Assembly: GCF_025642745.1 (NCBI RefSeq)
Contig: NZ_JANZKP010000020.1
Span: 1 to 57,095, forward strand
Length of the DNA: 57,095 bases
Direction: 5' to 3'
Source of the DNA: Cellulomonas sp. RIT-PI-Y
Lineage (GTDB): Bacteria > Actinomycetota > Actinomycetes > Actinomycetales > Cellulomonadaceae
The notes under the pieces are model-generated. The model did no database searches, had not been told where the DNA came from, and saw nothing but the letters and a program-made list of their open reading frames with translations. Positions 13,467 through 51,384 of the stretch are shown piece by piece. Both the position numbers and the translations under genes were made by a program. Each line of letters opens with the position of its first letter. Position 1 is the first letter of the stretch.

Positions 13467-13805
13467 TCAGGCCGCCGGGGTGGCGTCCTTGCGGGGCCGG
13501 CCACGGCCACGCTTGACCGCCACGACCTGTCCCGCGACGAAGACCTCTCCGCCCCAGACCCCCCAGGGCTCCTCCCGCTCCAGGGCGCCGGCCAGGCATC
13601 CCTGGATCAGGGGGCAGTCCCGGCACAGGGCCTTGGCCTGCTCGACCTCGGAGGTGCGCTCGGCGAACCAGAGCTCGGGGTCGTGGGAACGGCACGGGAT
13701 GAGTCCCGCGACCAGGTCGTCGAAGTCGTCGGTGCCGGACGTGACGGGGGGCCAGGGACCGGAACCGCCGAGTCCGATCGTGTCGAGCAGCGAGGTGAGC
13801 CGCAC
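13467..13805 (-). CDS. whiB7: WhiB7-type Fe-S transcriptional regulator
   Basis: 112 residues from a GTG with AGGAGG 5 nt upstream. The four cluster Cys are C38, C61, C64 and C70 (CRDCPLIQGC); the WhiB GVWGG turn is at 82-86. The C-terminal AT-hook RGRGRPRK at 99-106 distinguishes WhiB7 (WblC in Streptomyces) from other Wbl proteins. WhiB7 binds the housekeeping sigma factor and activates promoters carrying an AT-rich box upstream of -35, driving intrinsic resistance to ribosome-targeting antibiotics. Its neighbours uvrD2 and mycoredoxin match the mycobacterial locus. A leader of roughly 400 nt with two uORFs and an internal terminator precedes it. Confidence 0.92.
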   Translation of the reverse strand: MRLTSLLDTIGLGGSGPWPPVTSGTDDFDDLVAGLIPCRSHDPELWFAERTSEVEQAKALCRDCPLIQGCLAGALEREEPWGVWGGEVFVAGQVVAVKRGRGRPRKDATPAA

Positions 13806-13889
13806 GATGTCCTCCTGAGGTGATGCGAGTGCTGATGGGGCGGGCGGGTCCCGCCGCTTCCCACCTCGCCCCTGACATCAGGTCGGGAC

Positions 13890-13927
13890 AAAGAGAAAGG
13901 CCACGGAATCCGGGGGACTCCGTGGCC
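13890..13927 (-). terminator. Intrinsic terminator (attenuator) in the whiB7 leader
   Basis: On the minus strand GGCCACGGAGTCC (13927-13915) pairs with GGATTCCGTGGCC (13911-13899) across a 3-nt loop, a 13-bp stem with one G-U pair, followed at once by TTTCTCTTT (13898-13890). This is a complete intrinsic terminator lying about 85 nt upstream of the whiB7 start and 15 nt after the stop of the 67-codon uORF. Confidence 0.85.
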
Positions 13928-13942
13928 TGCAGGGCTGGCGCT

Positions 13943-14146
13943 CTAGCTGAGCGTCCCTGGGTCGACGGAGCCGGGGGTGTGGGCGTCACCGCTGCCACGC
14001 AGGCGGCCGGTGTAGCCGAGGGTGGCGAAGCCGCCACGGGTGTTCATCCGCACTGCGGACACACCACTCCCCTGGACCCAACCGAAGGTGGACACCTGGA
14101 TCGGCAATGCGATGGCATCGGAACCGATCATGTCGAGCGTCTTCAC
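13943..14146 (-). CDS. whiB7 leader uORF2, 67 codons
   Basis: The GTG at 14146 is preceded by AGGAGG with 7-nt spacing, one of the best ribosome sites in the window. The 67-residue product (VKTLDMIGSDAIALPIQV...DPGTLS) has no domain I recognise and no hydrophobic helix. Its start overlaps the stop of uORF1 by 4 bases (GTGA), so the two should be translationally coupled. It ends 15 nt before the attenuator stem, so a ribosome terminating there would cover the 5' arm. I infer a regulatory role: normal translation versus stalling decides whether the terminator forms. It could also encode a real small protein. Confidence 0.6.
   Translation of the reverse strand: MKTLDMIGSDAIALPIQVSTFGWVQGSGVSAVRMNTRGGFATLGYTGRLRGSGDAHTPGSVDPGTLS
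14033..14039 (-). promoter_or_regulatory. Possible antiterminator segment inside uORF2
   Basis: The minus-strand heptamer CCGTGGC here can pair with GCCACGG in the 5' arm of the attenuator at 13915-13927. Pairing would break the terminator stem. Seven bases is short, so this is only a candidate. Confidence 0.3.
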
Positions 14147-14205
14147 AGGGTCCACCTCCTCTCGTATCCGACCGGTCTGTCGATCCACAGCACGGCCTGT
14201 CTCAT
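14143..14205 (-). CDS. whiB7 leader uORF1, 20 codons
   Basis: The ATG at 14205 opens a 20-residue frame (MRQAVLWIDR followed by PVGYERRWTL) whose TGA overlaps the GTG of uORF2. Its codons GAG-AGG-AGG-TGG contain the Shine-Dalgarno of uORF2. No good ribosome site precedes the ATG, but it lies only about 12 nt past the predicted -10, so the mRNA would be nearly leaderless. Coding is inferred from architecture, not from homology. Confidence 0.45.
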   Translation of the reverse strand: MRQAVLWIDRPVGYERRWTL

Positions 14206-14217
14206 CGGGCAGGAGTC

Positions 14218-14247
14218 ACAGTAGAGCGGCCCTCCCGAGGGGCACAA
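14218..14247 (-). promoter_or_regulatory. Predicted whiB7 promoter
   Basis: On the minus strand TTGTGC (14247-14242) and TACTGT (14223-14218) are separated by 18 bp. Directly upstream of the -35 is an AT-rich patch (TTAATTCGG) that overlaps the uvrD2 stop codon at 14253-14255. An AT-rich box just upstream of -35 is the known signature of WhiB7-activated promoters, so autoregulation is likely. Confidence 0.6.
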
Positions 14248-14252
14248 CCGAA

Positions 14253-16268
14253 TTAACCAGAAACTTCTCGATGGCTCGCGACCAGGTCCAGCAGCTCGGT
14301 GCCGTAGCGGTCGATCTTGGCCGGTCCGATGCCGTGGATCCGCGCCAGATCGGGCACCGAGGCCGGTCGCAGCTCGGCGATCGAGGCCAGCGTCGCGTCG
14401 CCCAGCACGGTGAAGTCCGGCTTGGAGGTCCGGCGGGCCAGCTCCTGGCGCCAGGACTTCAGCGCGGACAGCAGCGCCGGGTCGGGGGTGCCGGTGGTCC
14501 GGGGCACCGACTCGGTGTCGCGACGGCCGAACCTCCCGCGTCCGTCGCTCGGCCACAGCCCGTCCAGGAACCGGGACCGGCGGCGGTTGCCCCGGCCGCC
14601 CGGTGTGCGCGAGCGCGCGTAGGACAGCTCCAGGTGCTCCCGGGCCCGGGTGACGCCGACGTAGAGCAGGCGACGCTCCTCCGCGAGGTCTGCGGTGGTG
14701 TCCGCCGACGCCCACGGCACCAGCCCCTCACTCAGACCGGTCAGGAAGACCGCGTCCCACTCCAGGCCCTTCGCCGCGTGCAGCGAGGCCAGGGTGACGC
14801 CTTCCACCGTCGGCGCGTGCTGCACCGCGGCACGGTCGTCCAGGTCGGCCACCAGGTCGGCGACCGTGGCCCGGGTGCCCGCGCGCTCGGCGGACGCGGC
14901 CAGCTCGTCGGCGAGCGCGACCAGGGCGGACAACGAGTCCCAGCGCTCGCGCGAGGCGCCCCGTGCGGCGGGCGGCTCCTCCGACCAGCCCACCGCCCGC
15001 ATCGCGTCCCGGGCGGCCTGCGGCATCGAGTCGTCGGGATCGGCGGCCACCGCGGCGCCGCGCAGCGTGGTGATGGCGTCCCGGACCTCGCGCCGGGCGA
15101 AGAACCGCTCGCCGCCGCGCAGCACGTAGCCGATCCCGACCGCGGCCAGTGCCTGCTCGTAGGCCTCGGACTGCGAGTTGATCCGGTACAGCACCGCGAT
15201 CTGGCTGGGCCGGGTCCCCGCCGCGATCAGCCGGCCGATCCGGGTCGCGACCCCGGCGGCCTCGGCCTCGTCGTCGTCGTAGACCGCGAACCGCACCGGC
15301 CCGGCGGAGGGGCGCTGCGCGACCAGTTCCAGCGGCTCCCAGCCCGTGCCCCGGGGAGCGCGGCGCAGCACCTCGTTGGCCAGACCCACCACCTGGGGCG
15401 TGGAGCGGTAGTCCCGGACCAGCTTCACCACCTGGGCCTTCGGGTGGTCCGCGGTGAACCGGGTCAGGTAGTGCGGCGTCGCCCCCGCGAAGGAGTAGAT
15501 GGTCTGCGCCGGGTCGCCCACCACGCAGAGCTCGTCCCGGCCACCGAGCCACTGGTCGAGCAGGAACTTCTGCAGCGGGGAGATGTCCTGGTACTCGTCG
15601 ACCACGAACCGGCGGTACTGCGAGCGGACCTCCTCGGCGACGGCGCCGTTGTCCACCAGCATCCCGGCCAGCAGCCAGAGGATGTCCTCCATGTCCATCC
15701 CGCCGCGGGCGTCCTTGGCGTCCTCGTACGCGGTGATCAGCCGGGCGATCACCTGGTGGTCGTGCCCGGCGGGGGCCGGCCGGCCGGCGGCGGCCGCGGC
15801 GGTCTCGTAGTCCTCGGCCGTGATCCGGCTGACCTTGGCCCACTCGATCTCCGACGCCAGGTCGCGCACCGCGACCCGGTCCACGGACAGCCCGAGCCGG
15901 TGGGCGGCGTCCGCGACCACCGGGGCCTTCTGTGCCAGCAGCTCCGGCACCGGCCCGCCGACCACCCGCGGCCAGAAGTAGCGGAGCTGGCGCAGGGCGG
16001 CCGAGTGGAAGGTACGGGCCTGCACCCCGCCGACGCCCAGGTCGCGCAACCGGCTGCGCATCTCCCCCGCGGCCCGGGCGGTGAACGTCACCGCCAGCAC
16101 GCTGGTCGGGGCGTAGACGCCGGTGCGCACGCCGTAGGCGATCCGGTGCGTGATCGCGCGGGTCTTGCCGGTGCCCGCGCCCGCGAGCACGCAGACCGGC
16201 CCGGTGAGGGCGCCGGCCACCGCGCGCTGGTCGGGATCGAGGGCGTCGAGCAGGTCGTCGGGGGACAT
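14253..16268 (-). CDS. uvrD2: ATP-dependent DNA helicase UvrD2 (SF1A with C-terminal HRDC domain)
   Basis: 671 residues from the ATG at 16268, chosen because GCGAGG lies 9 nt upstream; in-frame ATGs at 16277 and 16316 are less well placed. Walker A is GAGTGKTRA at about residue 30, motif II is VDEYQD in FVVDEYQDISPLQKF, and the helicase core ends near LLYVGVTRAREHLELSYA. The last ~75 residues (ALLSALKSWRQELARR...LARIHGIGPAKIDRYG) form an HRDC nucleic-acid-binding domain, the mark of actinobacterial UvrD2. It unwinds DNA during repair and is essential in mycobacteria. It is divergent from mycoredoxin and upstream of whiB7, the same order as Rv3198c-Rv3197A. Confidence 0.93.
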   Translation of the reverse strand: MSPDDLLDALDPDQRAVAGALTGPVCVLAGAGTGKTRAITHRIAYGVRTGVYAPTSVLAVTFTARAAGEMRSRLRDLGVGGVQARTFHSAALRQLRYFWPRVVGGPVPELLAQKAPVVADAAHRLGLSVDRVAVRDLASEIEWAKVSRITAEDYETAAAAAGRPAPAGHDHQVIARLITAYEDAKDARGGMDMEDILWLLAGMLVDNGAVAEEVRSQYRRFVVDEYQDISPLQKFLLDQWLGGRDELCVVGDPAQTIYSFAGATPHYLTRFTADHPKAQVVKLVRDYRSTPQVVGLANEVLRRAPRGTGWEPLELVAQRPSAGPVRFAVYDDDEAEAAGVATRIGRLIAAGTRPSQIAVLYRINSQSEAYEQALAAVGIGYVLRGGERFFARREVRDAITTLRGAAVAADPDDSMPQAARDAMRAVGWSEEPPAARGASRERWDSLSALVALADELAASAERAGTRATVADLVADLDDRAAVQHAPTVEGVTLASLHAAKGLEWDAVFLTGLSEGLVPWASADTTADLAEERRLLYVGVTRAREHLELSYARSRTPGGRGNRRRSRFLDGLWPSDGRGRFGRRDTESVPRTTGTPDPALLSALKSWRQELARRTSKPDFTVLGDATLASIAELRPASVPDLARIHGIGPAKIDRYGTELLDLVASHREVSG

Positions 16269-51216: not shown

Positions 51217-51285
51217 GCGTCTCCTCGGCACTCAGCGGGCTCGGTCGCGGAAGACCGCAGCCTCAGGCGGCGTTGATCCGACCGA

Positions 51286-51366
51286 CGGGCCCAGGCGTCC
51301 GACCCGAAGTCTCCAGCTGTGTCGCTCCCCGGTGGTGCCCCACCTGTGCGCCAGTTACGACGCGGA
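51286..51366 (-). promoter_or_regulatory. ZTP (pfl) riboswitch upstream of glyA-folD
   Basis: On the minus strand the leader holds the hallmark segments of the ZTP/pfl aptamer in order: CGTAACTGGCG (about 51359-51349), GTGGGGCACCACCGGGGAGC (about 51343-51324) and CGCCTGGGC (51297-51289). The ligand is ZTP/ZMP, which accumulates when 10-formyl-THF is short, and the class typically controls glyA, folD and purine genes. A -10 TATGGT (51373-51368) is directly upstream. About 70 nt separate the aptamer from glyA; I see no clear terminator, so control may act at translation initiation. Confidence 0.85.
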
Positions 51367-51384
51367 CACCATAGCAACCCCGGG

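Follow-up and report, generated by a model that had tools for sequence, protein, structure and literature searches.

The whiB7/wblC genes of Mycobacterium and Streptomyces are reportedly controlled by an attenuator that depends on an upstream open reading frame (uORF), a system that papers citing the work credit to Lee et al. 2022. Here, we analyzed the leader between uvrD2 and whiB7 in Cellulomonas sp. RIT-PI-Y, which lies on the minus strand of a 57,095-nucleotide (nt) stretch of DNA (contig NZ_JANZKP010000020.1; this whole stretch is hereafter called the window). Passages of published papers describe how a uORF acts together with an intrinsic terminator and an antiterminator to attenuate whiB7/wblC (PMC10727445, PMC13393426, PMC11550727, PMC13236596, PMC4128351). 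In agreement with the layout given in such passages (PMC10727445, PMC13393426), the Cellulomonas locus combines a long leader, a uORF, an intrinsic terminator, an antiterminator predicted to form from uORF and terminator sequences, and whiB7 downstream. It also shares an AT-rich stretch just 5′ of the −35 element, recognized here by composition only. It differs from the described attenuators in that the motif Arg/Lys-X-Arg/Lys (R/K-X-R/K) is enriched at a set distance from the antiterminator in uORFs of the Cellulomonas family and not clearly so in 60 leaders from other families.

Other leaders resemble parts of this locus. The frame of ErmDL, a macrolide-sensing leader, is much shorter than the whiB7 uORF. 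As in ErmDL-type leaders, an Arg-Leu-Arg (RLR) arrest motif is predicted within the upstream frame; in the passages available from PMC8298421, however, RLR occupies residues 6–8 and the frame controls an erm gene, whereas here it lies late in a 67-codon frame that precedes a terminator and a regulator gene. In the his and leu attenuators, as in the model proposed here, ribosome position selects either the antiterminator or the terminator, and passages of PMC9291695 describe the RNA polymerase pause consensus G-10 Y-1 G+1 in the hisL and leuL leaders. In contrast to those attenuators, the whiB7 uORF has no run of codons for a single amino acid, the proposed signal is drug-bound ribosomes, and the pause is predicted from sequence.

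We conclude that the uvrD2–whiB7 leader probably acts as an attenuator with one Shine–Dalgarno-led uORF of 67 codons: ribosomes arriving at its stop codon would cause termination, and ribosomes stalled upstream would turn whiB7 on. Folding predictions across the family support an antiterminator formed by the uORF end and the terminator arm, as in the known whiB7/wblC attenuators. On a more specific proposal our judgment is evenly balanced: in the Cellulomonas family, selection may keep an arrest motif about one ribosome length before the antiterminator, the two moving together, and a pause embedded in the uORF may keep ribosome and polymerase in step, so that whiB7 would be turned on by programmed leader-peptide arrest and not only by a general slow-down as in relatives. 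The general type of attenuator is already known; the arrest motif, its placing, and the pause-like element appear to be new. The titles, abstract openings, and passages searched, a literature that mostly left subscription journals outside, contained no report of such a motif or of a pause site in a whiB7 uORF. In its available passages, a 2025 paper describes antibiotic stalling of ribosomes within the whiB7 uORF as not yet tested (PMC12121999).

Predicted terminator and antiterminator, and ribosome position

The gene downstream of the leader (13805–13467, or 13816–13467 including its Shine–Dalgarno sequence at 13816–13811; minus strand) was identified as whiB7 from its translation, which contains four Cys, EPW, GVWGG, and RGRP. 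These elements agree with the definition of WhiB7 in passages of PMC10727445, namely four Cys, EPW, G[IVL]W[GA]G, and the AT-hook RGRP. The product matched the Pfam WhiB family (E = 4.9e-16), and no NCBIfam match was obtained at 0.001. WhiB7-like matches at an E-value of 0.001, some of them paralogues, were present in all genomes searched from the same genus (60/60), the family (150/150), and the class (118/118), and 223 loci yielded a WhiB7. C. denverensis (L058), with 89% over WhiB7, was the nearest named relative among the 80 loci kept. From 128 family loci offered, 118 distinct leaders were accepted, 5 having failed the rules and the rest being repeats; the folding tests used the 105 of these with a recognized promoter and a stop codon 5–30 nt before the terminator stem. 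A later set was drawn from 40 extra family regions, of which 23 were dropped (19 near-duplicates and 4 without the terminator pattern), leaving 17 leaders, for which the search intervals had been fixed beforehand.

The original prediction had placed a terminator hairpin before whiB7, and this was borne out. A 14-pair hairpin at 13928–13898, followed by TTCTCTTTGT, was the sole terminator-like site of our scan, with 0.1 expected in shuffled sequences. Together with its T-rich tail, the predicted intrinsic terminator spans 13928–13888 on the minus strand, and its fold energy alone was −26.9 kcal/mol. The 426-nt leader as a whole folded at −207.7 kcal/mol (z = −3.7), beating 100 of 100 shuffles.

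For the antiterminator, we folded the RNA as it would end once the 5′ arm of the terminator had been made and the 3′ arm was still absent. Under this setting, at least six of the seven bases of the GGAxxCC arm paired with the uORF end, with the stop codon enclosed, in 99/105 leaders, compared with 22% of shuffles of the upstream piece. The fold energy had a mean z of −2.56 relative to dinucleotide-shuffled upstream pieces and fell below −2 in 66/105 leaders; it was also lower than that of the terminator alone in 88/105, the pieces compared being of different lengths. In the window, where the same fold gave a z of −2.6 with 1 of 50 shuffles as good, GGCTCCGT at 13972–13965 (uORF codons 59–61) is predicted to pair with ACGGAGTC at 13923–13916, which is also part of the terminator 5′ arm. 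This helix contains one G-U pair and surrounds two predicted inner stems (13959–13955/13934–13930 and 13953–13949/13943–13939; together 13959–13930), inside which the uORF stop codon lies. Counted back from the end of the stop codon, the antiterminator starts at 26–36, 14–24, or 9–13 nt, depending on the leader.

The terminator arm reads GGAGTCC in 97/105 leaders. In the remaining eight it is GGACTCC (3), GGAAGCC (2), GGAATCC, GGATCCC, or GGAGCCC (1 each), and the predicted partners change to match. Of 111 leaders in which the arm is GGAGTCC, 59 contained the word GACTCCG, compared with 0 of 47 with three other arms; no own-arm words of this form were detected for those three arms, and arm type follows phylogeny. 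The longest uninterrupted duplex that the uORF could form with the terminator arm was only mildly above shuffles (mean z of 0.84 over the 118 leaders).

We then modeled a ribosome that hides all RNA as far as 15 nt 3′ of the first base in its P site. Before the 3′ arm exists, the terminator 5′ arm of the window was paired with a probability of 0.97–0.98 when the P site was at codons 44–54, of 0.57 at codon 55, and of at most 0.46 from codon 56 onward. In the 66 leaders that carry R/K-X-R/K 4–13 codons before the antiterminator, pairing of the arm averaged 0.92 for a ribosome placed on the motif, exceeding 0.8 in 62 leaders, and 0.39 for one placed at the last sense codon, exceeding 0.5 in 20.

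Several results speak against this picture of the switch or narrow it. A looser count, in which any arm base paired upstream with the stop enclosed, reached 105/105 (and 17/17 in the later leaders) and tells little because 69% of shuffles also pass. In four of the eight variant arms, one or two bases stay unpaired, and the matching of these arms gives modest support since the fold itself seeks complementarity. RNAalifold found nearly invariant helices with no double changes in two classes and no consensus in a third. The shuffles ignore the relatedness of the leaders, and the 17 later leaders, which come from family genomes already searched, share the family tree with the first set and so lack independence from it. 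In addition, when the full leader was evaluated at equilibrium, the terminator probability in the window was about 1.0 at all ribosome positions from codon 40 to codon 67, and the mean antiterminator probability in the 66 leaders with the ribosome on the motif was 0.08. Because the terminator wins at equilibrium, the choice between the two structures would have to be kinetic, with the antiterminator acting through its timing rather than through its final stability.

Predicted arrest motif and pause-like element within the uORF

In the window, the uORF (14146–13943, minus strand) opens with GTG and ends with TAG at 13945–13943. Its codons 48–50 (14005–13997, minus strand) encode Arg-Leu-Arg, a predicted site of macrolide/ketolide arrest, and the antiterminator begins at codon 59. 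Passages of PMC8298421 describe R/K-X-R/K as a macrolide/ketolide arrest motif and report that, in the case of Arg-Leu-Arg, P-site peptidyl-Arg-Leu-tRNA fails to react with Arg-tRNA. The motif occurred 3–20 codons before the antiterminator in 75/105 leaders, compared with a mean of 20.4 and a maximum of 33 after residue shuffling, and in 43/65 leaders of the non-redundant set (12.3 and 21, respectively). Farther upstream in the family leaders, it showed no excess over shuffles. Among the later leaders, 15/17 carried it at 3–20 codons (2.4 in shuffles) and 8/17 at 4–13 codons (1.4 in shuffles), with 0 of 1,000 shuffles as high in either interval.

Arg is the most enriched residue before the antiterminator (18.8% compared with 7.9%), followed by Gly, and shuffling was therefore also performed within this local stretch. 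Basic pairs at positions i,i+2 numbered 46, against 24.4 expected, and 0 of 500 local shuffles were as high, whereas pairs at i+3 and i+6 were below expectation. When nine residue classes were compared at i,i+2, basic residues occurred in 36/65 leaders against 7.1 expected. Lys is also used in the motif, and RLR is written by six codon triplets. The distance from the last motif to the antiterminator had medians of 10.0, 10.3, and 10.3 codons for the three antiterminator positions, whereas the distance to the stop codon was 19, 15.5, and 13 codons; the motif thus tracks the antiterminator and not the stop. These distances carry no upper bound, and 92/105 leaders have the motif anywhere upstream.

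The middle of the uORF contains a conserved element, CAGGGGAGTGGTGTGTCC (14074–14057, minus strand), which is a candidate RNA polymerase pause site. It fits the G-10 Y-1 G+1 consensus, with G-10 at 14070, Y-1 at 14061, and G+1 at 14060, and the uORF's first base precedes Y-1 by 85 nt. The pattern GG-N6-T-[GC]-[CT]-G was found in 99 of the 118 family uORFs, compared with 33 (maximum 44) after shuffling of codons or bases, and in 13/17 later leaders, compared with 3.9. Base frequencies were taken from anchoring on CAGGG alone and not from sites selected by the motif: over 68 distinct sites, T occupied +8 in 64, Y occupied +10 in 66, G occupied +11 in 63, and C occupied +13 and +14 in 58 each. 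No such CAGGG was present in 39/118 leaders. The CAGGG sites were in frame 0 in 61/68 cases, and two of the seven exceptions may be L048 and L050, which are wrongly framed.

These features suggest the following course of events. The uORF would be translated, and a pause of RNA polymerase at 14061/14060 would let the ribosome keep pace. A ribosome reaching the stop codon would open the antiterminator, upon which the terminator would form and transcription would stop. A ribosome stalled by a macrolide or ketolide, probably at the Arg-Leu-Arg codons 48–50, would leave the antiterminator folded, and whiB7 would be transcribed. Since any block before codon 54 would act alike, other ribosome drugs would also be expected to induce; Arg-X-Arg would supplement this general response with a trigger devoted to macrolides and ketolides.

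A plain attenuator is the obvious alternative to a dedicated trigger. It would have no built-in arrest motif, any slowing before codon 54 would induce it, and Arg-X-Arg would reflect composition or an RNA constraint. Several points weigh against our proposal, favor this alternative, or do both. Arg is locally enriched along with Gly, 30/105 leaders lack the motif at 3–20 codons, and in five sampled genera it is absent at 4–13 codons (0/3, 0/3, 0/2, 0/2, and 0/1). In other families, the motif is not enriched at 4–13 codons (8/60, 5.9 in shuffles) and is weakly raised at 3–20 codons (19/60, 10.3 in shuffles), a count within the shuffled maximum of 21. Basic pairs at i,i+1 are also mildly raised (38 compared with 27.2), as are, to some extent, Ala/Gly-X-Ala/Gly pairs (34/65 compared with 24.4), with no clear rise in the other classes. 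Passages of PMC12121999 state that whiB7 responds to several drug classes, and in ErmDL, according to those of PMC8298421, RLR is required for telithromycin and dispensable for erythromycin. Against the plain attenuator stand the i,i+2 spacing, which stands out even within the local stretch, the use of Lys and of varying synonymous codons, the constant distance between motif and antiterminator, and the presence of the motif in 15/17 later leaders. On balance, we consider a plain attenuator unlikely, though it keeps an appreciable share of our judgment.

The pause-like element also admits another reading, in which CAGGGG..TGTGYCC does not pause the polymerase but forms a small RNA hairpin or encodes a peptide feature. 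GGG and CCC arms could pair in many leaders, and in Cellulomonas the usual frame-0 translation of the element is Gln-Gly-X-(Ala, Gly or Thr). In the window, however, the arms would give only 2–3 pairs, and the residue encoded at the conserved T is not constant among sites that were chosen by the motif. Moreover, five leaders (L077, L078, L088, L214, and L218) carry the element in a different frame of their assigned uORF, an argument that the nucleotides themselves matter, although the uORF start is less sure in four of these because no promoter was recognized. A hairpin or peptide feature seems to us a substantial possibility, though less likely than not, and a pause site remains our preferred reading. 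As separate observations, a shared GGCACCGGTCTGTCC that fits the pause consensus occurs 248–257 nt before the terminator in leaders of another order with genomes of about 8–10 Mb (L138, L139, L141, L142, and L143), and similar pause-like words occur in some leaders of other orders.

Promoter and the 5′ part of the leader

According to the original prediction, the 5′ part of the leader holds a promoter-like TTGTGC-18-TACTGT, an AT-rich box over the uvrD2 stop, and a 20-codon open reading frame whose stop overlaps, in GTGA, the start of a 67-codon frame behind AGGAGG. All of these were located in the window on the minus strand. The promoter (14247–14218) consists of the −35 element TTGTGC at 14247–14242, an 18-nt spacer, and the −10 element TACTGT at 14223–14218. 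A sigma-70 scan of the leader returned no consensus promoter, and the promoter call thus rests on conservation; a −35/−10 spacing of 17–19 nt, with 18 tried first, was the search criterion for leader promoters. The AT-rich box (14266–14251) overlaps the uvrD2 stop codon (14255–14253) and, judging from its composition, is likely a WhiB7 autoregulatory site. Over 107 leaders, the nine nt 5′ of the −35 element are 67% A+T against a background of 25%, and passages of PMC6282962 describe binding of M. tuberculosis WhiB7 to AT-rich DNA 5′ of the −35 element. At the likely +1 of family leaders, GTCCTTG or a near form is widespread (e.g., L038 and L047), and it is complementary to CAAGGAC adjoining the whiB7 start in many leaders. 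None of 4,227 Rfam families matched positions 13780–14280 up to E = 1; elsewhere in the window, a ZMP/ZTP riboswitch (RF01750, 57.2 bits) was found at 51282–51368 on the minus strand.

The 67-codon frame (uORF2 of the original prediction, and the uORF of the preceding sections) had been thought unusually long, yet its length proved ordinary: uORFs range from 34 to 97 codons in the 118 family leaders and from 50 to 131 codons in 60 leaders of other families. In the family leaders, the uORF mostly ends 13–24 nt before the terminator. The shortest case, L053, has a uORF of only 34 codons without the mid-uORF element and keeps promoter and terminator.

The 20-codon frame (uORF1; 14205–14143, minus strand) is open in the window, and it had been proposed to form a coupled pair with uORF2. 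In this scheme, a near-leaderless uORF1 would hand ribosomes to uORF2, and slowing in either would block the terminator. The GTGA overlap exists in the window, and two relatives, L005 (with ATGA) and L014 (with GTGA), also have an ATG at this position that opens a 20-codon frame. However, its ATG lies only about 5–7 nt from the predicted +1 and lacks a Shine–Dalgarno sequence, whereas uORF2 has its own, AGGAGG at 14160–14155 on the minus strand, and Shine–Dalgarno-led starts were also found in relatives. Of the family leaders, 98 showed the expected spacing; a start codon near +1 is absent from 18 of them and present in 80. Of the frames in these 80, 20 (25%) end at the uORF2 start, compared with 23.4% when the intervening bases were shuffled; 12 join uORF2 in frame, 25 terminate before its start, 21 extend beyond it, and 2 have no stop in the stretch examined. 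Across the 80 leaders, neither the uORF1 frame nor its overlap was therefore conserved beyond chance. Such stop/start overlaps come cheaply because the start context supplies the TGA (ATGA, GTGA). L001 and L005 encode different uORF1 peptides, and the frame opened by the corresponding ATG of C. denverensis is fused to uORF2. With an overlap frequency equal to that of shuffles and a fused frame in the nearest named relative, we rejected the two coupled uORFs as an explanation for this locus and regard them as improbable. What stands of the earlier interpretation is a uORF-linked, ribosome-sensing attenuator of whiB7, now with its terminator and an antiterminator from the uORF end; the coupled two-uORF design does not stand. 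A true two-uORF case was seen in another genus of the family: in L050, two frames of 42 and 32 codons with an ATGA overlap take the place of a single uORF (about −365 to −141 relative to the whiB7 start), and L048 is similar.

Control could instead act on initiation of uORF2, with the transcript 5′ end (GTCCTTG in relatives) masking the uORF Shine–Dalgarno sequence. Many leader 5′ ends do fold onto this sequence. Nevertheless, the fold had a mean z of only −1.17 over 107 leaders, with 41 below −1.5 and a value of −0.2 in the window, and RNAalifold gave no consensus structure at the 5′ end. Control at this step seems very unlikely to us, and attenuation through the single Shine–Dalgarno-led uORF remains the preferred explanation.

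Implications for whiB7 control

whiB7 is a master switch of intrinsic antibiotic tolerance in actinomycetes. For this gene, comparison of leader sequences names specific positions: P-site codon 49, a motif mostly 6–14 codons before the antiterminator, a computed flip at codon 54/55, and the candidate pause base 14061. If the proposal is correct, the switch itself would be common to relatives, and a drug-specific trigger would have been added to it by one family.

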